28,889 nt of DNA. Origin: a virus. Where the stretch lies: IMG/VR virus record IMGVR_UViG_3300049911_000211, positions 1 through 28,889 of that record; one strand, given 5' to 3'. The notes beneath the pieces are model-generated. The model made no database searches, had not been told where the DNA came from, and saw only the letters and a list, made by a program, of their open reading frames with translations. A program made the position numbers and the translations under genes. Shown piece by piece: positions 3,189 through 28,889 of this stretch; the stretch's first letter is position 1; each line of letters begins with the position of its first letter.

Positions 3189-3385
3189 TTTGCTACGAGC
3201 ATGTGTGTACTCGTAGTAAGGGCCCTTTTTCGTCTGTGAAACCCTGCGCAATCGGTGTTTCTAGGCCTCGGCCGGGGCATGGGAAAAGTCCATGCATTTC
3301 ACGATCATGCATTCTGGGGTTTGTTGGTGTAGGGCAACAGGGCCTAGTCTCTTATGTTGTTGATGTTGGTGGTTTCGATGGTTGA
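3185..3385 (+). CDS. Hypothetical small Cys-containing protein
   Basis: 66 residues from ATG 3185, which overlaps the previous stop by 4 nt (ATGA), with a G-rich ribosome-binding-like stretch (GGGGGCGG) just upstream. It has scattered cysteines (ICYEHVC near the start, PCISRSC near residue 38) and a hydrophobic Gly-rich end. There is no recognisable domain. The frame also reads upstream inside the previous gene, so length alone does not prove coding. The case rests on the tight overlap and on the gap it fills between two better genes. Confidence 0.42.
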   Translation: MICYEHVCTRSKGPFSSVKPCAIGVSRPRPGHGKSPCISRSCILGFVGVGQQGLVSYVVDVGGFDG

Positions 3386-3905
3386 GCAGTCTACACAAGA
3401 ATCTACTGTAGGGGCCGCGCAGACCATGGGAGAAACTGCTAAAAAACGCAGTCAAGAGGAGAAAGTTGGGCGGCTTAAGTATAATCAGCAGCTCCTCAAG
3501 CGGATCCTATCGGAGATCCAGCAGCTTCGGGGGACGCAGCGGATAATTCTTAACGGTTTGAAGGGCGCCGGCTACTTTCATTTTAGCATGCCGATGCTTC
3601 ATAAGATTTCTTGCGTCGACCAAGTTGATATCGAGATCCTGGAAGCGGTTCACGAGGCTGGCGTGCAGGGCATTTACCCGAAGGACGTTGCGAGCCAACT
3701 GAAGCAGTACGGCTTGAGGTATTGGCACGTTAGCCGTAGAATCTTGCGCATGAATAGGCGTCTGGAATATGAGACTGGCGAGAAATTGTTTGAGAAGCGA
3801 GGCTGGAAATGGGCCCTAACGCGGTTTGCGTTCGACGTTTGGGGCGAAACTGAGGCGGTTGTCGGTTCTGGCGAATCGGGTTCCGTTACCTCTTCGGTTG
3901 ATTAG
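3378..3905 (+). CDS. Winged-helix DNA-binding protein
   Basis: 175 residues from ATG 3378; an ATG at 3354 is also in frame, but it would add only hydrophobic residues and overlap the previous gene further. The first third is polar and charged with a probable coiled coil (LKYNQQLLKRILSEIQQLRG). Residues about 85-150 look like a winged helix: VDIEILEAVHEAG, then the recognition-type unit YPKDVASQLKQYGLRYWHV, then a basic wing (RRLEYETGEKLFEKRGWKW). The tail is Gly/Ser-rich. It ends a run of four or five small plus-strand genes. A transcription regulator is most likely; a replication or packaging DNA-binding role is possible. Confidence 0.65.
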   Translation: MVEQSTQESTVGAAQTMGETAKKRSQEEKVGRLKYNQQLLKRILSEIQQLRGTQRIILNGLKGAGYFHFSMPMLHKISCVDQVDIEILEAVHEAGVQGIYPKDVASQLKQYGLRYWHVSRRILRMNRRLEYETGEKLFEKRGWKWALTRFAFDVWGETEAVVGSGESGSVTSSVD

Positions 3906-3945
3906 CCTTTTCTGCGTTGCTGTTACTTTTCGGTTGATGGTTAGC
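3885..3945. repeat. Imperfect 22-24-bp direct repeat
   Basis: A GTTAC...TTCGGTTGAT...TTAGC-type unit occurs at 3885-3906 and, with small indels, at 3922-3945, a period of about 37 bp. The first copy forms the last codons and stop of the winged-helix gene; the second lies upstream of the AbrB promoter. It could be a binding-site pair or a leftover duplication from insertion of the 4005-5160 cassette. Confidence 0.45.
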
Positions 3946-3951
3946 GTTTTC

Positions 3952-3971
3952 GGTACCTAAAAACTTATAAA
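3952..3971 (+). promoter_or_regulatory. Archaeal promoter of the AbrB-like gene, with GGTACCTAA box
   Basis: TTATAAA at 3965-3971 is a good archaeal TATA box. A transcript starting about 25 bp downstream would begin near 3994-3998, leaving fewer than 12 nt before ATG 4005, so the message is nearly leaderless. GGTACCTAA (3952-3960) abuts it on the upstream side, where TFB or a regulator would bind. The same 9-mer appears in the promoter of the convergent gene. Confidence 0.6.
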
Positions 3972-4004
3972 GTAGAACATCTATTTTACGCAATAGGTGC
4001 CTCA

Positions 4005-4184
4005 ATGCGGTTACAGAAACAACTTTCGAGAAAAGTAGCGGACAAAAAATACCCAAAGTATGTTATCACTATTTCACCCAAATACATCGAACAATTAGGT
4101 TGGAAAGAGGGTACTGAATTGGAAGCGAAAGTCAGGGATGGAAAAGTTATCTTGTACCCGAAACCAGCCGAGGTACACGAATAG
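4005..4184 (+). CDS. AbrB/SpoVT-type swapped-hairpin regulator, 59 aa
   Basis: 59 residues. MRLQKQLSRKVADKKY leads into the typical AbrB-fold core: YVITISPKYIEQLGWKEG (strand plus short helix), then TELEAKVRDGKVILYPKP (paired strands). This is the usual layout of archaeal AbrB-like transition regulators and antitoxins, which bind DNA as dimers through a basic edge. A TATA box at 3965-3971 makes the message almost leaderless. Its 3' end overlaps the 3' end of the minus-strand Ntn hydrolase by 38 bp. With the shared promoter motif, this suggests that it regulates itself and that neighbour. The family is clear; whether it is an antitoxin or a general repressor is not. Confidence 0.8.
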   Translation: MRLQKQLSRKVADKKYPKYVITISPKYIEQLGWKEGTELEAKVRDGKVILYPKPAEVHE

Positions 4185-5088
4185 TTGTTTCTGATGGCAG
4201 CAACACTTTTGACTGCAATTTAGTTATCTTTGTATCATGGATTAAGTCATCAAATCTCTTGACTCCAGCCTCAATGTTATTCAAGACTTCTTTTTCATTC
4301 TCGAAAACAAGTCTGCCACAACGCCCATCATTAAATACGACATAAGCCTCTGGAGGAAATTCGTCAGAATATCCAACGGAAGACTCTTTCGCTATTTTTT
4401 GCACATACGTGATCGTTAAGAAAGCGAGAGCCACAAGGTCGTACATGCCATTATTGAAATTGTACAAACGATCAAAGAATTGTCTCACGTGAGGATAGCC
4501 TGACCCTATCGCGAAATAGTTTTCAACTTCGTGTTCATGTCCATCACAATCTATATAGTGTAATGAAGGCAGAACACCCACATCTTTTCTGACTCCAATC
4601 AACACATCGAGAGGGTTCGATGTTTCTTCTTTGCGTTGTTTGCTGATTTCTCTAATCAGTTGTTTACAGTCATCCATGAAGCGTTCGTATGTATAAAAAT
4701 AGGGAATCAGCATGGGGGTGCCACTTTCAATTATTGGGGGCATAGTCTTTTCGACTGATTCTCTAGTCTGTTGTGTTACTCGCGCTCTTGGTTCAAGCTG
4801 TTCCAGATAGTTTATTGCTTGTTCGCGTGTGAATCCTGTTCTTAACAAAGCCTCGATGTTTGAAATCTTGTACTCAATTAATCTTTGCCCTACGATCAAA
4901 GGTATCTTTCTGTTAAATTCCAAGAATAGGTCGCTGTATCCCGCTGCACCTACGATAAATGGAGCTTGAGGCATTGGGCGCAAGATTTTTGGTGCAAAAC
5001 TCTCCTCACCCGACGTTATATCGATGATCTTGGTATCTGAGACTAGAGCAACACCATGTGTGCATTTGAAACCTATTATCAATGTCAT
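4147..5088 (-). CDS. Proteasome-like N-terminal-nucleophile hydrolase (peptidase T1 type)
   Basis: The start chosen is ATG 5088, preceded by GAAGG at 8 nt and by a TATA box, giving 313 residues. Removing Met exposes Thr1 in TLIIGFKCTHGVALVSDTK. Asp falls at position 17 and Lys at 33 (ESFAPKI), the catalytic spacing of 20S proteasome beta subunits. Downstream proteasome-like landmarks follow: FIVGAAGYSD, DVLIGV, LHYIDCDG, VENYFAIGSGYPHVRQFF and a late AYVVFNDGRCG. The usual Asp166/Ser169 pair appears as Glu/Val (KESSVG). It is about 100 residues longer than a beta subunit, mainly through a helical insertion near residues 60-150 and a C-terminal tail. The frame continues upstream to an ATG at 5160, but the TATA box lies inside that extension. 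A threonine peptidase or amidase is likely; substrate unknown. Confidence 0.75.
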   Translation of the reverse strand: MTLIIGFKCTHGVALVSDTKIIDITSGEESFAPKILRPMPQAPFIVGAAGYSDLFLEFNRKIPLIVGQRLIEYKISNIEALLRTGFTREQAINYLEQLEPRARVTQQTRESVEKTMPPIIESGTPMLIPYFYTYERFMDDCKQLIREISKQRKEETSNPLDVLIGVRKDVGVLPSLHYIDCDGHEHEVENYFAIGSGYPHVRQFFDRLYNFNNGMYDLVALAFLTITYVQKIAKESSVGYSDEFPPEAYVVFNDGRCGRLVFENEKEVLNNIEAGVKRFDDLIHDTKITKLQSKVLLPSETTIRVPRLVSGTR

Positions 5089-5111
5089 CCGTTTAGCCTT
5101 CAGTCTATCTG

Positions 5112-5145
5112 TTAGGTACCTATCGTATGATTTCTTGTATAAATT
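5112..5145 (-). promoter_or_regulatory. Promoter and operator-like palindrome of the Ntn hydrolase
   Basis: On the minus strand AATTTATAC (5145-5137) is a TATA-like box. The expected transcript start falls near 5116, inside the perfect palindrome TAGGTACCTA (5113-5122). Minus-strand GGTACCTAA (5120-5112) is identical to the box beside the AbrB TATA at 3952-3960. A dimeric regulator bound here would block initiation. Confidence 0.5.
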
Positions 5146-5175
5146 GTTATCTCTCATCATTCAAACTATCTCCAT

Positions 5176-5221
5176 CAACCGAAGAGTAACACCGCTACAA
5201 AATGTCTCGAACAACCGAAGA
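5176..5221. repeat. Direct repeat CAACCGAAGA, two copies
   Basis: CAACCGAAGA occurs at 5176-5185 and 5212-5221 (36-bp period), each followed within a base or two by GTAACA. The pair lies between the divergent Ntn hydrolase promoter and the promoter of the virion operon, a natural place for a regulator. The rest of the 5161-5247 stretch shows no gene. Confidence 0.4.
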
Positions 5222-5247
5222 CGTAACAGAACCACGAATCGCAACTG

Positions 5248-5380: not shown

Positions 5381-6706
5381 ATGCCCTGGGAAGACGGTCA
5401 AGATTACGTTCGGTCTGGCCATAGAAGCCCTGACGATTTTGAGAAGGACAGTTTTCGGACTATAACTATTGATGCTGAGAAGGGGATTAAGGCTGTTATT
5501 GGTAAGCCGAAGGGCAAGGATACAACTGAGGTGCAGAGTTATCTTTTTGCGAAAGATAAGGACTGGACGGTTGATAAGGCCAAGGCTTGGTTTGAGAACC
5601 ACAAGAGCGAGGCTTTGCATAGCCACAGTTTGTTTTTTGATGTGAAGTTTTTAACGGAGAAAGCTGATCCTGAAGCGCGTATTTTTCCGTGGAGCATGCC
5701 CGCGCGGTACTACGTGAAGCCTAGTCGTATGCTGATTTATGGCACTGCATTGACAGCTGGCAAGACTCGTAAAGGCGATGTTTTCAATTGTGAAGAGCTT
5801 AGACGTGGAGCTCGCAGCCTAATTGGTGGGCCTATTGAGGTTTTTGAGCATACGTGGGATGCTGGTGAAAGTCGGTGGTTGCCTTTCCCTGATAATGCTG
5901 TTTTGGATGGAGAAGAAGTTGATGGCAAAGTTGAATACATTGCCGGTGTCAGCGAGTCTAGAGTTCAGCAACTGATTCGCGAGGGCGTAATTAACCAGGT
6001 TAGTGTTAACGCAATTTGCCGTCATGTTCCGGCTGATGACCCGGGGCAATGTAACGGCATGATTCTGAACGGTTTCTGTCTGCTGCATAAAGATAGTCTT
6101 GCAGCAAGCCCAGGGACCAATGTCAAAATTTGGAATTGTTTAAGGGCTAATGCCCGTCGGCTGGAAGGCGGTAAACCTCCAGAGTCCGAAGTGAACAAGA
6201 TGAGTGAAAACAAAAATGAAGGAAGTACGTCGCAAGCTGATCCTTCGCAGAAGACTCAGCAAGTCAGTGGACATGGCCCAGTGGCTGGTCAAGCTGAGCC
6301 TAGCATTGAAGACCGCGTTAAGGCCCTTGAAGACAACTTCAAAAGGCTGGAAGACTGGATGACCAACCAGTTCACATCGATCAACGCAAAGTTGGATACG
6401 CTGATTCTGGTCAAATCCGCTGCGGTTGCCGTGGCGACTCCGCCTGCGCAACCTCCATCCCCAACGATTGTGGCTGCTCCTGCAACGGCTTCTGTTGAGA
6501 AAACTGAGCAGGTGCCTTGTGGACATGGAAAGAAGACTGAAGATGTCGTTGCAGCCATTAAGCCAGTCGAGCCAGTTCAGCATATGGTTGTTTTGACTGA
6601 GCAGGAGATTCTTGGAGTTTTAACTGATAAGCGTAGGTTCACGCCAGCTCTGCAGTTGAATGGGATTTTGGATTTGCTTGAGGCTAAGAAACGGGAGGCT
6701 GCTTAG
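5381..6706 (+). CDS. Prohead protease fused to scaffold-like C-terminus
   Basis: 441 residues. Residues 1-80 resemble the leader seen in XkdF-like phage proteases (IKAVIGKPKGKDTTEVQSYL, then WTVDKAKAWFENH). Residues about 110-255 are the serine protease core: GTALTAGKTRKG, candidate catalytic His157 in EHTWD and Ser208 in NQVSVNA, then NGFCLLHKDSLAASPG. Residues 308-345 form a probable coiled coil, followed by an Ala/Pro-rich linker and a C-terminal helical end (EILGVLTDKRRF...LLEAKKREAA), as in scaffolds. It would shape and then cleave the procapsid. An internal ATG at codon 274 (MSENKNEG) could yield a separate scaffold, though no good ribosome binding site precedes it. First gene of the virion operon, after a structured leader. 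Confidence 0.8.
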   Translation: MPWEDGQDYVRSGHRSPDDFEKDSFRTITIDAEKGIKAVIGKPKGKDTTEVQSYLFAKDKDWTVDKAKAWFENHKSEALHSHSLFFDVKFLTEKADPEARIFPWSMPARYYVKPSRMLIYGTALTAGKTRKGDVFNCEELRRGARSLIGGPIEVFEHTWDAGESRWLPFPDNAVLDGEEVDGKVEYIAGVSESRVQQLIREGVINQVSVNAICRHVPADDPGQCNGMILNGFCLLHKDSLAASPGTNVKIWNCLRANARRLEGGKPPESEVNKMSENKNEGSTSQADPSQKTQQVSGHGPVAGQAEPSIEDRVKALEDNFKRLEDWMTNQFTSINAKLDTLILVKSAAVAVATPPAQPPSPTIVAAPATASVEKTEQVPCGHGKKTEDVVAAIKPVEPVQHMVVLTEQEILGVLTDKRRFTPALQLNGILDLLEAKKREAA

Positions 6707-13086: not shown

Positions 13087-14709
13087 ATGGGCACCGTTCC
13101 CGACGCTTATTACGACTTTGTCATGCATTATGCGCCTTGGTTTTATGTGATAACTACTGCTATGGCTGCTGATCCGCCTGCTGGCCAGAAGAATGTCACG
13201 GTTGCGGATGGCACTAAATTTAGTGCTGGCATGCCCTGCGAAATCAAAGACTCAGCTCACAGCGAATGGAATGAAGTTGATTCTGTTGCTGGCAATGTTG
13301 TGACCATGAAAAACAATCTAGCCTATACTTATTATGTGGCTAAAGGCGGAACCGTGGATCACGGGGATAAGAGTTTTGGAAAGGGCGCTTTTCCAGCTGC
13401 TTTTGCCATCGAGTTTCTGTCTGAGGCTTATTCTGTTCCTCAGTTTGCTTCTTTGCAAGCGACTATTTTGACGAAGATTGTGGAATTGGCTAATTGGCTT
13501 CTTACTCAACAATGCACTGATCCAGCGAAAAAAGCTTATGGCGGGTTCAAATCCGCTGAGTCGAGTACTCAGTATTGGGCTGTTGATGCGGGTCGTGTCA
13601 TTCCTGCTCTGTTGAAAGCGTATGCCCTGACGTCGACTGCAGGCTATTTGGATGCTGCTAAGCTCGCTGGTTACACTTTTCTCTACACGATGCAGCAACA
13701 ACCAAGCATTCTGGGCATTCATGACAAATACTATGGTGGCTTCGCAAACTACGTCAGCATAACCGATACCTGGGACACTGTGATGAGCATTGAAAACTTA
13801 TACTGCTTGATCGCCTTGAAGCTCTTGGCGGACACGTACGATGTGGCTAATGCCTCTCGGTATAGTGTCATGATGGCAGATGCTGCAGGCTTCCTCAGGG
13901 ATGGGTTTGAGCAGCTCTATTTGTATTATCAACCTCCGCCTTCGGGTTCTGGCGTCTGGTACCGGGTGGGAATCAATGATACCGAAGTCTACGATGATCC
14001 TGTGAGCTTCGCTCTGCTGGGGCTGTACGTGTATGAAGGCTGGAGTTTCACGTGTCAGCGCGCCTACAACTTCATTCAGTCGATTAGGGCTTCGGGGCAA
14101 TATCCTGCTTATTGGCCAGAGATCTGTTGGCCAGGCTATGTTGATGTGGTTACGAGGTTCCCAGCATGTGCGTACTATGATGCGATCACTACGGGAATCT
14201 TGTGGAAGATCAGGAAAGAGCGAGATGCTCCAAGCTTCAAGCTTGGCCACGATGTCGTGAGCAAGTATAGTGACGAGTTTCTTTATTGGGGTCCTGTTTT
14301 CACGGATTATAGTCCGATCACGGCGCAGAAGGCTATGGCAAATGTCACATGGCTAGCCCGCATGTTTCTCAACTACGAGGAGCCCTTGACTAGATTCATG
14401 AAGATTTTGAATAGCAAAGGCGAGGCTGTCCTCCTTTACCCAATCCGTCAAGCTGTTGAGACTGTTTCTTATGGCGAGGCTTTGGACTTATTGGCGATTG
14501 TCTCGCTTGTCAGAGCTGAAGAGGTTCTCTTGGAGGCTGGATATTTGCTGAATGACTATCTTGCCGTCTATACTTTCGTGCCGGTTCGCAATCATGACAA
14601 GATACATCGCAAGGGCGAGGATTACGAGCTACAGAGCGTTCAACCTTTCACTTTCGAGAATCAGACGATTTATTTCAAATCGATTGCGAGGAGGTTGTTA
14701 GCGACTTGA
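13087..14709 (+). CDS. Neck (head-closure-like) protein carrying an alpha/alpha-toroid enzyme-like domain
   Basis: 540 residues from ATG 13087. Residues about 30-90 form a small beta-barrel (NVTVADGTKFSAGMPCEIKD, VVTMKNNLAYTYYV) as in phage structural proteins. Residues about 98-470 are helical hairpins typical of six-hairpin or N-acylglucosamine-epimerase-like toroids: YGGFKSAESSTQYWAVDAGR, VIPALLKAYALTSTAGYLDA, YYGGFANYVS, MSIENLYCLIALKLLADTYD, SFALLGLYVYEGW. The C-terminal 60 residues (NHDKIHRKGEDYELQSVQPF, FENQTIYFKSIARRLL) read like a head-closure protein. A sugar-acting enzyme built into the virion neck is the likely meaning. Catalytic residues cannot be assigned. It overlaps the next gene by 4 nt. 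Confidence 0.6.
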   Translation: MGTVPDAYYDFVMHYAPWFYVITTAMAADPPAGQKNVTVADGTKFSAGMPCEIKDSAHSEWNEVDSVAGNVVTMKNNLAYTYYVAKGGTVDHGDKSFGKGAFPAAFAIEFLSEAYSVPQFASLQATILTKIVELANWLLTQQCTDPAKKAYGGFKSAESSTQYWAVDAGRVIPALLKAYALTSTAGYLDAAKLAGYTFLYTMQQQPSILGIHDKYYGGFANYVSITDTWDTVMSIENLYCLIALKLLADTYDVANASRYSVMMADAAGFLRDGFEQLYLYYQPPPSGSGVWYRVGINDTEVYDDPVSFALLGLYVYEGWSFTCQRAYNFIQSIRASGQYPAYWPEICWPGYVDVVTRFPACAYYDAITTGILWKIRKERDAPSFKLGHDVVSKYSDEFLYWGPVFTDYSPITAQKAMANVTWLARMFLNYEEPLTRFMKILNSKGEAVLLYPIRQAVETVSYGEALDLLAIVSLVRAEEVLLEAGYLLNDYLAVYTFVPVRNHDKIHRKGEDYELQSVQPFTFENQTIYFKSIARRLLAT

Positions 14710-20948: not shown

Positions 20949-22337
20949 TTGGAGTCTCGGTTAAGCGAGATTTGGCTTCAGGCTGAACAGAAGCGAGTGA
21001 GGCTCAGCTCTGATCCAATCACGTTTTTTGAGCAGGTTGTCGGTTTCAAGCCTACCGCCTACCAGAAAGATTTGGCGAAAAGATTTGTGGAAAATCAGTT
21101 TGTCGGTATGCGTTGGTGTAGACAGAGCGGCAAGTCTTGGATCGCTGCGGCTCTTCTCCTGAATTATGCATTGATGCGCCCAGCTTCTTACATTGGTATT
21201 GTTGCTCCCGGTTGGCGCCAAAGCAAATTGATTATTCGGCGCATACGATTCTTTCTCCGCAAACTTCCGAAGGACCTATGTCCAAAGCCAGCTCGAACTG
21301 TGCTCTATTTCTCCAATGAATCAATCATCGAAGCTTTCCCAAACAACCCTGACACCATCCGTGGGCCCACATTACAAGTTATATACTGGGATGAAGCAAA
21401 CTTCACTCCTGGCGACATTGACCTCTGGACCGCCATACTGTTCACAATTTCAACCACAAAAGGCAAGGTTCTCGTAAGTAGCACACCTTGGAATACTGAT
21501 TCCGTCTTCTATAAAATATTTCACAACCCAGAATTCAGCGACTTCTCCAGAAGCCATGTGGCTTGGCAGCAAGCATTGGAGCCAAACGGACCCTTAGATA
21601 AGAAAACGCTGGAAGCCATACGAAAACAATTTGAAAATGATCCTTGGAGGTTCAGAAGAGAATGTGAGGCTGAGTGGTCAGAAGACGAGTCGGCTTGGTT
21701 GCCGCAATCGCTGATCACGAAGTGCATCGCAACGGAGAAGACGCTTGGGGAAGAATTGGAGCTGTGGGATTGGGAAAGTGTACAGAAAGGCTCCACATTA
21801 TTCGCTGGGGTAGACTTGGGTCGCGTGCAAGATCATAGTGTCCTCGTAGTGATTGAGCAGCTCAAGGAAAGTAAGTATGTCCTTCGTCATCTGAAAATCT
21901 TTGATTTAGGAATTAGCTACGCCTCTGTGATCGGTTATGTCAAGACCCTTCAGGATCGTTGGGGCGGCTTTGCTAAAATCCGTGTCGACTCAACTAATCA
22001 GGATTATGTTGTTGAAGACATGACAAACAGCGGCATAGACAACTGCGAGGGAGTCCGCTTTAGTTTACCACGGAAGCAGGAGATGGCGACACTTCTGAAG
22101 CAGCGCATGGCGAATAATCAGTTTTGGTATCCATATTTCACTTGGCAGAAGCCTTATCCCGGTGAGTGGGTTAGTGAACTTAATGTTGAGCGCTTCGAGT
22201 TGAGAAAAGATGGGTCCATAGCCCTCAATCACCCAAGCGGAACACATGATGACTGCTTCTGGGCTTGTGCTCTCGCCTTGTTTGCCACAGTTGAAATGCA
22301 ACCTGAACCTTTCCTTGCGGTGATTTCAACCCGATGA
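20949..22337 (+). CDS. terL: Terminase large subunit (packaging ATPase and nuclease)
   Basis: 462 residues from TTG 20949, placed just after the small subunit; in-frame ATG 20877 or TTG 20853 would overlap it and add basic residues. ATPase domain: the adenine-binding region FKPTAYQKDLAKRF, Walker A CRQSGKS (about 57-63), Walker B LQVIYWDEAN with Asp148-Glu149, and coupling motif LVSSTPW. Nuclease domain (RNase H fold): Asp289 in AGVDLGRVQD, Asp347 in IRVDSTN, and the DD pair at 434-435 in GTHDDCFWA. It pumps DNA into the head and cuts it. Its place at the end of the virion cluster is unusual. Confidence 0.92.
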   Translation: MESRLSEIWLQAEQKRVRLSSDPITFFEQVVGFKPTAYQKDLAKRFVENQFVGMRWCRQSGKSWIAAALLLNYALMRPASYIGIVAPGWRQSKLIIRRIRFFLRKLPKDLCPKPARTVLYFSNESIIEAFPNNPDTIRGPTLQVIYWDEANFTPGDIDLWTAILFTISTTKGKVLVSSTPWNTDSVFYKIFHNPEFSDFSRSHVAWQQALEPNGPLDKKTLEAIRKQFENDPWRFRRECEAEWSEDESAWLPQSLITKCIATEKTLGEELELWDWESVQKGSTLFAGVDLGRVQDHSVLVVIEQLKESKYVLRHLKIFDLGISYASVIGYVKTLQDRWGGFAKIRVDSTNQDYVVEDMTNSGIDNCEGVRFSLPRKQEMATLLKQRMANNQFWYPYFTWQKPYPGEWVSELNVERFELRKDGSIALNHPSGTHDDCFWACALALFATVEMQPEPFLAVISTR

Positions 22338-23779
22338 CAAGGCATCGAGAGTTTTTCCGCATCCGCCAGCTTCGCAGGGTCTACGACAGGAGCCAGAATC
22401 GTTTCACGTTTAATATTTCGTATGAGACAGCTGCCAAGATCACGCCGAGGAGTATAGCGGTTGCTGAGGCGTTCGGCCTTGGTCTTGATGACGAACGGAG
22501 ATTTGTCATCTATGATAATGTTGAGCTGAAAATAAGTCCTAACGATATTGTTCTCATCACCGGCAGTTCAGGGAGCGGCAAAAGCGTTCTCTTGCGAGCT
22601 CTCCTCGAGGACTTGGGACCTGAAGCAGTTAACATGGCAACTGTGAAAGTGGATCCTGACCAGCCTCTGATTGAAACAGTTGGCAAAACAGTTGAAGAAG
22701 GCCTCGAGCTGCTGAGTCGTGTGGGCCTTAATGATGCGTTTCTCTTCCTGCGTACGTACAATCAGCTTTCAGACGGGCAACGGTATCGTTATCGAGTTGC
22801 GAAGTTGATCGAGAGTGGCAAGCAATGGTGGGTGATGGATGAGTTTTGCGCAACTCTCGACCGGGACACTGCGAAAATCGTGGCTTTTAATGTTCAGAAA
22901 ATCTGCAGGTCTATGGGAAAATCTCTGGTTGTCGCAACGACTCATATGGACCTGGTTGACGATTTGAAGCCCAGCGTGCACATCCACAAGAGGTTCGGCA
23001 AGGAAATCTCTGTCGGCTACTTCCCAAATGAGCCCGCAAGGGAATGCAGTTTGATGAGCGAGATGCGAGTTATCGAAGGCACAACTAAGGATTGGAAGGA
23101 GCTCGCCGGCTTTCATTATCGCAGTCATAGGATCTGTGCGCCTCGGAAGGTTTTCTGCCTCAAACGCGGTGAGGAGCTGTGCGGAGTGATCGTTTATTGT
23201 TATCCGCCTCCCAGTGCCTACGGTCGAAGAATGGTTCTGCCCAAAATGAGCATGAAGGAATTGAATGAGAAGTTGAGCATTATCAACCGTGTGGTTGTGC
23301 ATCCGAAGTATCGGAGTGTCGGTTTGGGTGCTAGGCTTATTCGCGAGTCGTTGGGTTTGGCTGGGACGGAGTTTGTGGAGATGGTTGCGGTCATGGCTAA
23401 GTACAATCCTTTTGCAGAGAAGGCGGGGATGAAGAAGGTTACTGAGCAGGAGCCTCAGAGGGAGATTTTGCGGGCTTCTAAGGTCCTTCAAGAGGTCGGG
23501 TTTAATGTTCAGCTGCTTGGAAGCGGGAACCATGTATTCCAGAAACTACAGGCACTCAATGCCGATGAGCTGGAAAGGGTTAGGGAGGCCTTCGTCAAAG
23601 CCGACCATCCGCGCTTCTCAAAGTTTTTCAGCTCAGGCCTTCCGTTCGGGCATATGGGGGATTATGAGAGAAAGGTGAATGCTGCAACCTTGGAGCAGCT
23701 TGCAGGACTTATCAAGATCTGCGGTTTCTTGATGCAGACGAAGGCTTACCTTTTCTGGCGGCTCGCGCGTTTGGGATAA
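22334..23779 (+). CDS. ABC-type ATPase fused to GNAT acetyltransferase (COG2401-like)
   Basis: 481 residues from ATG 22334, overlapping terL by 4 nt. ABC ATPase: Walker A GSSGSGKS (77-84), signature LSDGQ (145-149), Walker B WWVMDEF (165-171), H-loop His204 in ATTHMD. There is no transporter partner, and the ATPase is of the soluble kind. GNAT domain about residues 250-400: WKELAGFHYRSHRI, INRVVVHPKYRSVGLGARLI with the acetyl-CoA loop RSVGLG (327-332). A C-terminal helical region follows. This fusion is known as COG2401 in archaea and in some viruses; its job is not established. The overlap with terL ties it to packaging or late functions. Confidence 0.85.
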   Translation: MTRHREFFRIRQLRRVYDRSQNRFTFNISYETAAKITPRSIAVAEAFGLGLDDERRFVIYDNVELKISPNDIVLITGSSGSGKSVLLRALLEDLGPEAVNMATVKVDPDQPLIETVGKTVEEGLELLSRVGLNDAFLFLRTYNQLSDGQRYRYRVAKLIESGKQWWVMDEFCATLDRDTAKIVAFNVQKICRSMGKSLVVATTHMDLVDDLKPSVHIHKRFGKEISVGYFPNEPARECSLMSEMRVIEGTTKDWKELAGFHYRSHRICAPRKVFCLKRGEELCGVIVYCYPPPSAYGRRMVLPKMSMKELNEKLSIINRVVVHPKYRSVGLGARLIRESLGLAGTEFVEMVAVMAKYNPFAEKAGMKKVTEQEPQREILRASKVLQEVGFNVQLLGSGNHVFQKLQALNADELERVREAFVKADHPRFSKFFSSGLPFGHMGDYERKVNAATLEQLAGLIKICGFLMQTKAYLFWRLARLG

Positions 23780-25359: not shown

Positions 25360-25556
25360 CAGTCTTTTTTTAGCTGCGGTGATCCAACACGGATGTTCAG
25401 CTATCGAGACTCAAATAGTTAGCGGATTGAGGTTCTGGTTAAAATAGGGTTGGTTATTTAGGGTTGTTCAATTCGGGTCGATGTTTTGCTTCTAGGCTTT
25501 TCGTGATGAGTCCGAGCCACTTGTTTCTATCATCTGTTCCGATCCTTGCCAACGCT

Positions 25557-25597
25557 ATAGGTAACCCTTTATATAAGTTACAGCTCAGTTTACCTAT
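25557..25597 (+). promoter_or_regulatory. Restriction-operon promoter bracketed by an 8-bp inverted repeat
   Basis: TTTATATAA (25568-25576) is a strong TATA box. ATAGGTAA (25557-25564) and its exact complement TTACCTAT (25590-25597) bracket it, the second arm covering the first bases of ATG 25596. A smaller pair GTAAC/GTTAC (25561-25565, 25577-25581) hugs the TATA box. Transcription should begin almost at the ATG (leaderless). Protein bound here would block both TFB/TBP loading and initiation. Confidence 0.65.
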
Positions 25598-25856
25598 GGA
25601 GATACATAAAGTGGAAGATTTCGGAGAGATAACCAAATTAACGCTGGCCAAAACGAAAAGCGAGTCTTTGAGAACAACAGTACCCATGAGCATAGTAAGA
25701 CAGTTCACCCTAAAGGCAGGAGACAGAATAGGTTGGAAAATCGACATAAAAAACGGGGAACTAGTGGTAGTTGTCCGTCCTATAAAAAGTTCCAGCGGAA
25801 ATAGAGGTGTTTCCACTGAAAATTTAAGAGATTCAAAAACAGCAATTGAAAGATAG
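25596..25856 (+). CDS. AbrB-like regulator heading the restriction-modification operon
   Basis: 86 residues from ATG 25596, chosen because the TATA box at 25568-25576 makes a leaderless start; in-frame starts back to 25464 lie upstream of that promoter. The core KLTLAKTKSESLRTTVPMSI, VRQFTLKAGDRIGWKIDIKN, GELVVVVRP is an AbrB/SpoVT swapped-hairpin fold, with a polar Ser-rich tail. It lies 8 bp before the methyltransferase. By position it takes the place of the C (controller) proteins that time expression in many type II systems, and its own promoter carries an inverted repeat. Regulation is inferred, not shown. Confidence 0.75.
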   Translation: MEIHKVEDFGEITKLTLAKTKSESLRTTVPMSIVRQFTLKAGDRIGWKIDIKNGELVVVVRPIKSSSGNRGVSTENLRDSKTAIER

Positions 25857-25864
25857 GATGCTAA

Positions 25865-27766
25865 ATGAGATTTATCGGAAGTAAAGAATCAATGAAGGAG
25901 GAAATATCAGGGTTACTAGAGCAAAAAGGGCTTCTAAGCGAAAAATTAACGTTTTTCGATGCCTTTTGTGGAACTGGATCGGTGGCAGATGCATTAAAAG
26001 GCTCGTTTAATATTGTTATCAACGATATTTTGAATTGGTGTGTTGTTTATACAAAGGGTCGTATCGTGGCTAATGATTGCCATTTTGGTAAATTAGGGTT
26101 AGATCCATTTGAGCTTTTAAATACATCTGACAGAACGACAGAAGGTTTTATTTATGGTAATTATGCTCCAACTGATTCAAAAAGAATGTATTTTACTCCC
26201 AAAAATGCCAGTAGAATTGATTATTTTCGTCAACAGATCGAAGAATGGAACAAACAAAAATTACTTTCTGAGGAAGAATATGCATACCTTTTAGCTTGCT
26301 TAATTGAGTCGGTTTCGAGGGTGTCAAATACAGCAGGGGTATATGGTGCTTTCCTAAAGAAATGGGATTCAAGGGCTATGAAGCCGATAGTTTTCAATAA
26401 GGTAGATTCGAATGCAGAACCGCATAATTTACTCAGTACGTACAATGGAAAAATTGAAGAAATTATTCCTAATGTACCCTGTGACGTGTTGTACTTAGAC
26501 CCGCCATATACACAAAATCAGTACGGTACACAGTATCATTTGTTGGAAACACTTGTTTTGAATGATAAGCCATCCATTAGCCCTGTTACTGGGTCTAGAT
26601 ATACTGCTCCTATGCGGTCGGACTGGTCAAAGGAATATAAAACAAATATCAAATTTGATTCTGTAATAGCTAATACTCAAGCTAGATACATCGTTTTCAG
26701 CTACAATAACGACGGATTCATGTCTAAGGAATATATTGAAGCTTGCCTAAAACGCTACGGCAAACCAGAAACATATTATTGTAAGAAGATACCCTACAAA
26801 AAGTATCGAAATTTCAAAACGAATGGACACAAAGAACATTTTGAATATTTGTTTTTTGTAGAAAAAAGAGAAGCAAAAGACATCTGCTATGAATCTCCTC
26901 TAAATTATATCGGTAGCAAATCAAAGATGGTAACTGCGATCAAAAGAAATCTCCCGAATAATGTTCAAGAATTTTACGATTTATTTGGCGGTGGGTTCAA
27001 TGTTGGAATAAACATTGATGGAAGCCCAGTAATATATAATGACATTAATCACTTCGTAAGAGAATTAGTGGAATCATTTAGAACATATGATACTTATGAG
27101 TACCTTTTGTATATGCGTCAAATAATAAAGAAATTTGGACTAGAAAAGGGAAACGCTGACAGCTACACAAAAGCTAGGGACTACTATAACAGTTTACCTA
27201 CGAATAAGAGAGACCCTAGGCTTTTGTATACTATCATACTTTATGGTTATCAACAACAGATTCGCTTTAATGGCGATCATAATTTTAACAACCCAGTAGG
27301 TATGCGTTGGTTTAATGATAAAGTACTTGAAAAAATGATTAGCTTTTCAAGAGTTATAAAAACAGGCAGTTTCAAGTTTCTCTCTCAGGATTTTTCAAAG
27401 ACATTGGGAGAAATAAAGCCAAATGCTTTCGTATATATGGACCCCCCCTATATGTTGACAACAGGCTCTTACAACGATGGCAAGAGGGGCTTCTCAGGCT
27501 GGACAATAAAGGATGAAGAAAGGCTTTTGGAATTTGCTGATAGTTTGAATAAGTCAGGGATTCGTTTTATGATTTCGTATGTACTTGAGCATGGAGGAAA
27601 AATAAATTCACGAATATCAAGCTGGATAGAGGAAAGAAAATATAAGTTGATAGAAGTAAATGAGATTCCAAAGACTGCGAGTTGGTGGAGTGGACGAAAA
27701 AGGAAGGAGGTTCTAATAATCAATTATGAACAACCGCAGGCTACCTCATTTTACGATAAAAAATAG
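25865..27766 (+). CDS. Double-domain DNA adenine methyltransferase (FokI type)
   Basis: 633 residues from ATG 25865. Two complete D12-class N6-adenine methyltransferase domains are fused. The first starts MRFIGSKESM, has SAM motif FDAFCGTGSV (31-40) and catalytic LDPPY (211-215). The second starts LNYIGSKSKM, has DLFGGGFNVG (372-381) and MDPPY (525-529). M.FokI has the same size and layout, with each half methylating one strand of an asymmetric site. An asymmetric recognition sequence is therefore likely, though the site cannot be read from sequence. The gene is clearly AT-richer than the virion genes, suggesting separate acquisition. It overlaps the endonuclease by 41 nt. Confidence 0.9.
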   Translation: MRFIGSKESMKEEISGLLEQKGLLSEKLTFFDAFCGTGSVADALKGSFNIVINDILNWCVVYTKGRIVANDCHFGKLGLDPFELLNTSDRTTEGFIYGNYAPTDSKRMYFTPKNASRIDYFRQQIEEWNKQKLLSEEEYAYLLACLIESVSRVSNTAGVYGAFLKKWDSRAMKPIVFNKVDSNAEPHNLLSTYNGKIEEIIPNVPCDVLYLDPPYTQNQYGTQYHLLETLVLNDKPSISPVTGSRYTAPMRSDWSKEYKTNIKFDSVIANTQARYIVFSYNNDGFMSKEYIEACLKRYGKPETYYCKKIPYKKYRNFKTNGHKEHFEYLFFVEKREAKDICYESPLNYIGSKSKMVTAIKRNLPNNVQEFYDLFGGGFNVGINIDGSPVIYNDINHFVRELVESFRTYDTYEYLLYMRQIIKKFGLEKGNADSYTKARDYYNSLPTNKRDPRLLYTIILYGYQQQIRFNGDHNFNNPVGMRWFNDKVLEKMISFSRVIKTGSFKFLSQDFSKTLGEIKPNAFVYMDPPYMLTTGSYNDGKRGFSGWTIKDEERLLEFADSLNKSGIRFMISYVLEHGGKINSRISSWIEERKYKLIEVNEIPKTASWWSGRKRKEVLIINYEQPQATSFYDKK

Positions 27767-28889
27767 ATTTCAAAAGAAACAAGAGAGTTACTCAGATATT
27801 CTCACAGAAGACATTTTAAGAGATGTCTGCTTAAGAGTTACAGGCTCGGCGCATTATACTTGCGAATTTGATGAAGAAGGATATAATATCGGTCGCATGG
27901 CCATTTTAGAATATAATGGAGTAAAAGCATACATTTCTTTTTCTGATACGGAAGCTAGGGGGCGTAATTCAAGTTTTCAAAGTGTGCCAAGTGCATTGTC
28001 TCGTTATATTTTAGATAATCAACGAAGAAAAAGGATATGTTTTTACTTCTTGCCTTCTTCGGGAAATGTAGAGACATATTATTTCTTGTTTATGTATCGG
28101 TTGATGATGACTGCTGGAATAGAATTTCTCAATGCCCAAGAATTTTTATCCCAACAAATTCAGCCATTTAACACTATTGTAGATGTTATTGCTTCAAGAA
28201 ATGCGAATAGAGGACGTAATAGAAGCAATAATTCAACGTATATAACACAAAGTTCAGATCGAGTCACGCAGATTTTCGGTAAGACATATGGGGCTAGCAA
28301 GTATGAAACTACCTTGTTATGTGTGGCATTGTCGCGTTTAACATCGTTACCAATAGAATTGTATGAGATATGTGAGCAAACTCTGACTGTTTTACCCGAA
28401 TTGAGTCAGCAAGCTATCGAATCATTGGGTAAAGTCAAACTCATCCCGACTGATTTAACAATGGAGCGATTTGATTTTGAAAGCGAAAATAGCCTTCGTT
28501 CACCTTTGTATACTTACAATCTCCTTGCTAAATTAGGGCCGAAGAAATGTGCTTTGTGCGGATGTGAAATTCCAGAGCTGATTCAAGGGGCACATATTTG
28601 GCCCGTTTCGGAAATAAAGAAAGAAGTGGCTATTAGCATTGATGAAAAACTAAGATGGGCAACTGATGGTGACAATGGCTTATGGTTGTGCGAGAATCAC
28701 CATAGAATGTTAGATGCAAACTTAATAATAATTGATAAACATGGGCATATAGAATATCAAGAGGATTTGGAGGAAAATCACAGAGACTTTATTGAATGGA
28801 CTACGCCAAACATGGTTTTAGCGACTTCTGTTCTTACAACTGCCTTTATGATTTACTTGCGGAAAAGAAATGCTGTTCTCTCAACATAA
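27726..28889 (+). CDS. HNH-type restriction endonuclease
   Basis: 387 residues from ATG 27726, overlapping the methyltransferase by 41 nt; the stop is the last codon of the window. The C-terminal third is an HNH nuclease: CALCGC (275-280), GAH with His290, DGDNGLWLCENHHRML with Asn317, Cys322 and His325/326. The cysteines would hold a structural zinc while His290 and Asn317 act with the catalytic metal. The N-terminal two thirds (about 1-265) have no motif I recognise and should hold target recognition (VKAYISFSDTEARGRNSSFQ). Paired with the FokI-type methyltransferase, it makes a type II restriction system, probably cutting at or near an asymmetric site. Confidence 0.85.
   Translation: MNNRRLPHFTIKNRFQKKQESYSDILTEDILRDVCLRVTGSAHYTCEFDEEGYNIGRMAILEYNGVKAYISFSDTEARGRNSSFQSVPSALSRYILDNQRRKRICFYFLPSSGNVETYYFLFMYRLMMTAGIEFLNAQEFLSQQIQPFNTIVDVIASRNANRGRNRSNNSTYITQSSDRVTQIFGKTYGASKYETTLLCVALSRLTSLPIELYEICEQTLTVLPELSQQAIESLGKVKLIPTDLTMERFDFESENSLRSPLYTYNLLAKLGPKKCALCGCEIPELIQGAHIWPVSEIKKEVAISIDEKLRWATDGDNGLWLCENHHRMLDANLIIIDKHGHIEYQEDLEENHRDFIEWTTPNMVLATSVLTTAFMIYLRKRNAVLST

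Follow-up and report, generated by a model that had tools for sequence, protein, structure and literature searches.

The window, i.e. the whole stretch of 28,889 nucleotides analysed here, comprises an entire IMG/VR record. Its left end is the host purD-purF flank (the purF product has 98% protein identity to that of the Bathyarchaeota MAG PFL10), and its middle is a head-tailed virus module with the terminase, the major head protein and tail proteins, the virion module starting at 5381. An inserted segment (3879..5233) separates the gene at 3354 from the virion gene at 5381; it contains just two genes, which converge and share 38 bp at their 3' ends. These encode an AbrB/MazE-type DNA-binding protein of 59 aa (4005..4184, plus strand; PF04014, 30.1 bits) and a proteasome-like N-terminal-threonine hydrolase (4147..5088, minus strand; 313 codons plus the stop codon) starting with Met-Thr.

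Numbered from the threonine, i.e. with the methionine removed, the hydrolase has Thr1, Asp17 and Lys33 at the proteasome beta positions. This assignment, made in the initial annotation, was confirmed by the reading frame, by the match to the Pfam Proteasome family (PF00227, 32.7 bits against the cut-off of 22.4) and by a structural overlay, in which model residue 2 (Thr) falls on residue 1 of the matched chain. A profile built from eight relatives retrieved proteasome subunits from PDB with E 1e-8. The AlphaFold2 monomer model (pLDDT 79, pTM 0.78) matches the 20S proteasome beta subunit with Z 23 over 215 residues and Anbu with Z 21; in the Foldseek search Anbu ranked first among the matches listed, and neither connectase nor HslV was among the structure matches listed. 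As modelled, the hydrolase has the four-layer alpha-beta-beta-alpha fold of proteasome subunits. Its length is 312 aa vs. about 200 aa, in agreement with the previously noted excess of about 100 residues, and most of the extra length belongs to a C-terminal tail and to a helix plus disordered stretch at about 83-133. It had also been claimed that the Asp166/Ser169 pair is replaced; in the sequence alignment the closer relatives have [ED]xSVG instead of DxxSG, hence the serine would be displaced, as claimed, whereas the acid would be retained in most of them.

Thr1, Asp17 and a lysine (at 31-33) are conserved in all nine homologues, so that no loss of the nucleophile was observed, and in eight of them ATG, GTG or TTG directly precedes Thr1, the exception being L093 with ACG at this place. 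The hydrolase of L140 has no usual Gly-containing oxyanion region. Neither PHROGs nor PADLOC yielded a match to the hydrolase. As the start codon immediately precedes Thr1, removal of the methionine would expose the nucleophile without a propeptide, and the propeptide that in PsmB stands before Thr1 is indeed absent here. A common upstream peptide, FIRYRN, had suggested such a propeptide, but it is a palindromic DNA motif read in frame, and this candidate was rejected for that reason and because the start codons abut Thr1.

The same purF site in a PFL10 contig (L017) is occupied by a sister provirus with about 98% DNA identity. In L017 the DNA to the left of window position 3879 is joined directly to the DNA to the right of 5233; the segment is absent from the sister provirus, and the hydrolase/AbrB pair is a transposon insertion, 1,355 bp in size. 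The insertion is flanked by a target-site duplication, GCGAATCG on the left (3871..3878) and ACGAATCG on the right (5234..5241; 7/8 identical to the left copy), while the empty site of L017 contains GCGAATCG as a single copy. The outer terminal inverted repeats, GGTTCCGTTACCTCTTCGGTTG (3879..3900, plus strand) and GGTTCTGTTACGTCTTCGGTTG (5212..5233, minus strand), lie exactly at the indel boundary and are complementary at 20/22 positions, the chance of which is about 1e-10, as the ends are fixed by the L017 comparison. Nested within them are the inner inverted repeats TGTTACTTTTCGGTTGATGG (3921..3940, plus strand) and TGTTACTCTTCGGTTGATGG (5172..5191, minus strand), complementary at 19/20 positions. 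The window copy hence has both marks of an IS6-like element, the 8-bp target duplication (7/8 bp) and the terminal inverted repeats (20/22 bp). No DDE transposase is encoded within 3879-5233, and the copy is a derivative rather than an autonomous IS6-like member. A 688-bp segment in another viral contig (L203) has the outer end at both sides, one perfect and the other with two mismatches, and no target duplication is evident around it. In yet another viral contig (L202, 2652-4360) an IS6-like end, a cargo ORF and a transposase fragment interrupt the homologue of the window gene at 13087.

In five loci with hydrolase relatives (L102, L103, L137, L138, L140) the hydrolase gene is adjacent to that of a 369-394-aa transposase. 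The DDE_Tnp_IS240 core was found in the transposases of L102, L103 and L138, and those of L137 and L140 were assigned on the basis of their 55-59% identity to that of L103. With the IS6 family model NF033587 (cut-off 125 bits) the L103 protein passes (129.5 bits) and the L102 protein comes close (108.8 bits). The elements of L102, L103 and L138 end in clear terminal repeats of 20-53 bp, and each is flanked by a perfect 8-bp duplication (GTAAAAGA, TGTTTTAG and TCAGGATC, respectively). The ends of L140 are diverged, with the perfect 8-bp duplication ATTTTAAA at both sides, and in L137 there is only a left-end-like motif, read by eye. End repeats were not found around L093, L101 and L139, and thus not every homologue is shown to reside in an element. 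The layout with double-repeat ends is common to the window element, L103, L095 and L096; the last two are elements with AbrB and a transposase but no hydrolase, and they too have 8-bp duplications. The passenger at L096 5024-6211 is a fusion of ParB-N, HTH_ParB and DUF488.

Related IS6-like transposases are present in 49/151 genomes of the ammonia-oxidiser family and in 29/256 genomes of the Bathyarchaeota class. Among 30 transposase loci retrieved from the ammonia-oxidiser family, three have AbrB between the transposase and the neighbour gene, and in all three this neighbour is the hydrolase; a fourth locus, L163 (the same as L140), has the hydrolase without AbrB of that type, and L143 has a weak AbrB match and no hydrolase. 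No hydrolase was found alongside the transposase in the Bathyarchaeota loci examined. Since many transposase relatives have no adjoining hydrolase, the latter is not needed for transposition. The PFL10 genome contains a fragment of an IS6-like transposase 85% identical to that of L096, which makes mobilisation in trans plausible in the Bathyarchaeota host group.

AbrB accompanies the hydrolase in six of the nine homologues (the window, L093, L102, L103, L137, L138), and so the neighbourhood first noted in the window proved to be recurrent; in L140, L139 and L101 the hydrolase occurs without AbrB of this type. In L102, L103, L137 and L138 the AbrB gene is situated between the other two, being convergent to the hydrolase gene and divergent from the transposase gene. 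All six AbrB-bearing elements have a TTAGGTACCTAA-type palindrome 26-35 nt before the hydrolase start, and the palindrome is repeated either upstream of AbrB (the window, L093) or between the genes for AbrB and the transposase (L102, L103, L137, L138), with L137 having the GGCGCC variant at both places. In L140, where AbrB is missing, CCGTACGG occurs three times in the transposase region, and the hydrolase region has no similar motif. All four matches of the palindrome in the window are inside the element. Three putative AbrB operators were assigned: TTCGGTACCTAA (3949..3960, plus strand), just upstream of a TATA-like box at 3967-3972; ATAGGTGCCTCA (3993..4004, plus strand), at the AbrB start; and ATAGGTACCTAA (5112..5123, minus strand), located 35 nt ahead of the hydrolase start codon, within the promoter and downstream of a TATA-like box at 5138-5143 (both boxes were identified by eye).

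Two distant hydrolase homologues were retrieved from the 256 genomes searched in the host's class; one of them, in G106 (L042/L093), is paired in the same tail-to-tail overlap with AbrB 66% identical to the window AbrB. The homologues from L102, L103, L137, L138, L139 and L140 come from a phylum sample and a family sample. The hydrolases encoded beside IS6-like transposases, in presumed ammonia-oxidising archaea, are 22-45% identical, and the window protein shares 42-45% identity with those of L137, L138 and L139. In two genera the hydrolase is present in 1/95 and 1/17 genomes, respectively, and this patchy spread is the pattern of a mobile gene. The L140 genome belongs to an ammonia oxidiser, since the hydrolase locus adjoins archaeal amoA; the hydrolase-bearing IS6-like element (L140 4554-10600) is about 2 kb from amoA. 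The other homologues were obtained by searching the same family.

In the phylogenetic tree the window hydrolase forms a branch with three hydrolases of the ammonia-oxidiser family, those of L137, L138 and L139 (100/99), outside the separate branch of PsmA plus PsmB (99/97); the tree includes E. coli HslV, with a long branch of unsure placement, and leaves out Anbu and connectase. The tree and the inserted segment bear out the initial description of a proteasome-family Ntn hydrolase that stands alone in accessory DNA and is distinct from the host PsmB. A displaced ordinary beta subunit of the archaeal host, which would have the same fold and catalytic residues, is thus extremely improbable, given both branches, the absent propeptide and the start codon abutting Thr1.

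Taken together, it is highly probable that an IS6-like archaeal transposon carries the hydrolase as a passenger, under regulation shared with AbrB and the transposase. In the relatives with both the transposase and AbrB, the hydrolase gene faces the AbrB gene, followed by the transposase gene diverging from the latter, and the window element has the hydrolase/AbrB half only, residing in a Bathyarchaeota head-tailed provirus. As this half encodes no transposase, it was probably moved in trans, or else the transposase was lost after arrival. The suggestion of a viral gene, or of a factor in the virus-host conflict, is not supported, given that the insertion is absent from the sister provirus and that most relatives adjoin transposases in archaeal genomes.

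Given the positions of the palindrome, AbrB probably binds TTAGGTACCTAA in its own promoter and in those of the transposase and the hydrolase, and would repress all three genes. With a common operator, the hydrolase and the transposase would be produced together once repression fails, e.g. upon entry into a naive cell. The motif shared with the AbrB-transposase region argues for the hydrolase serving the element. As for its purpose, the best single candidate, offered tentatively and with less than even confidence, is hydrolysis or ligation in the service of the element, for example turnover of AbrB, the transposase or a host factor. It is possible, but somewhat doubtful, that the hydrolase is a part of the transposon control proper, being released along with the transposase and proteolytically removing (or ligating) the AbrB repressor or the transposase; if true, this would be a timed proteolytic switch in archaeal transposons.

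Alternatively, the passenger could benefit the host or the virus, with a role in stress, in quality control or against competitors that repays the upkeep of the element, perhaps in virus-host or virus-virus conflict. In a related virus (L040, 4221-6191) the insertion hotspot is indeed occupied by a fusion of a ParB-N domain with an N4/N6 DNA methyltransferase, and the chromosomal hydrolase of L139 retains intact catalytic residues without a transposase neighbour. However, most homologues adjoin transposases in archaeal genomes and share the motif with the AbrB-transposase region, while other viral contigs, phages and plasmids yielded no homologue, nor were close relatives found in genome contigs. 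Hence we consider this alternative unlikely.

Still less likely is a toxin-antitoxin system, with the hydrolase being a toxic protease and AbrB, having the MazE fold, both the antitoxin and the repressor of an addiction module ensuring retention of the transposon or the provirus. Besides the fold of the partner, it would agree with the recurrent hydrolase-AbrB pairing with its common motif, and toxin-antitoxin pairs have been reported within the transposition module of Tn3 transposons (PMC7157771). At the same time, the AbrB proteins of the elements are about 54-60 aa long, i.e. no more than the DNA-binding domain, and no tail that might bind a toxin is evident; the two genes converge and have promoters of their own, overlapping only by their 3' ends, instead of forming an operon; PADLOC gave no match; and in L140, L139 and L101 the hydrolase is kept without this AbrB. 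The Tn3 transposons resemble our elements in that an accessory gene pair is built into the transposition module, but they have another transposase and other proteins, and toxicity of the hydrolase is putative.

We compared the hydrolase with known proteasome homologues. It shares the C-terminal helix with Anbu, which provided the best Foldseek matches among those listed, although Anbu is bacterial and about 235 aa long, and the hydrolase has an additional helical and disordered stretch. We know of no link between Anbu and transposons. By description, it resembles WPH, PHI, ACC and PMI (Fuchs, Alva and Lupas 2021; PMC8665760), which likewise adopt the proteasome fold with Thr1/Asp17/Lys33, lack a propeptide, contain insertions as well as a C-terminal helix, and are similar to both alpha and beta subunits. 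No function-suggestive genomic context was reported for these four, and the word transposon is absent from the main text of that paper. The PPH and AAH proteins of phages (PMC8665760) are also virus-linked proteasome-like hydrolases, but they belong to the bacterial group I, PPH being about 140 residues long, whereas the link of our hydrolase to the virus is a transposon insertion.

The elements share with IS6 transposons and MITEs (PMC7986276, PMC6807381) the 8-bp duplications, GGTTCTG-type ends and, in the relatives, the DDE_Tnp_IS240 transposase, and differ from them in that the transposases are longer, having zinc-ribbon/SWIM-like parts at the N-terminus, the inverted repeats are double, and passenger genes are present. 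In the IS6 review (PMC7986276) just one member is named as having a passenger gene. We use the name "IS6-like", as the archaeal elements have been argued to merit a separate family (PMC6807381). Recurrent passenger genes are now added to an archaeal group earlier viewed as nearly passenger-free, and in the literature searched we found no earlier report of a proteasome homologue as a transposon passenger.

Many proteasome homologues have neither an assigned function nor an informative gene neighbourhood. A set of them is now linked to mobile elements of a single type, in which a partner gene recurs and a promoter motif covaries, this being the first telling genomic setting for this enzyme group, and hence the search for substrates becomes concrete (AbrB, the transposase). 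The link also points to mobile DNA as a vehicle for the spread of proteasome relatives between archaeal classes and into viruses.

Two other regions of the window are worth mentioning. Downstream of the terminase gene, 22334-23779 encodes an ABC-type ATPase of 481 aa that includes a GNAT-like acetyltransferase part and is conserved in related viral contigs. In the region 25464-28889 a second AbrB-type gene precedes two others: the first encodes a fused D12 adenine methyltransferase, which PADLOC matched as a type II methyltransferase with 535 bits, and the other, where the contig ends, is HNH endonuclease-like. Together they suggest a restriction-modification cassette in the provirus.
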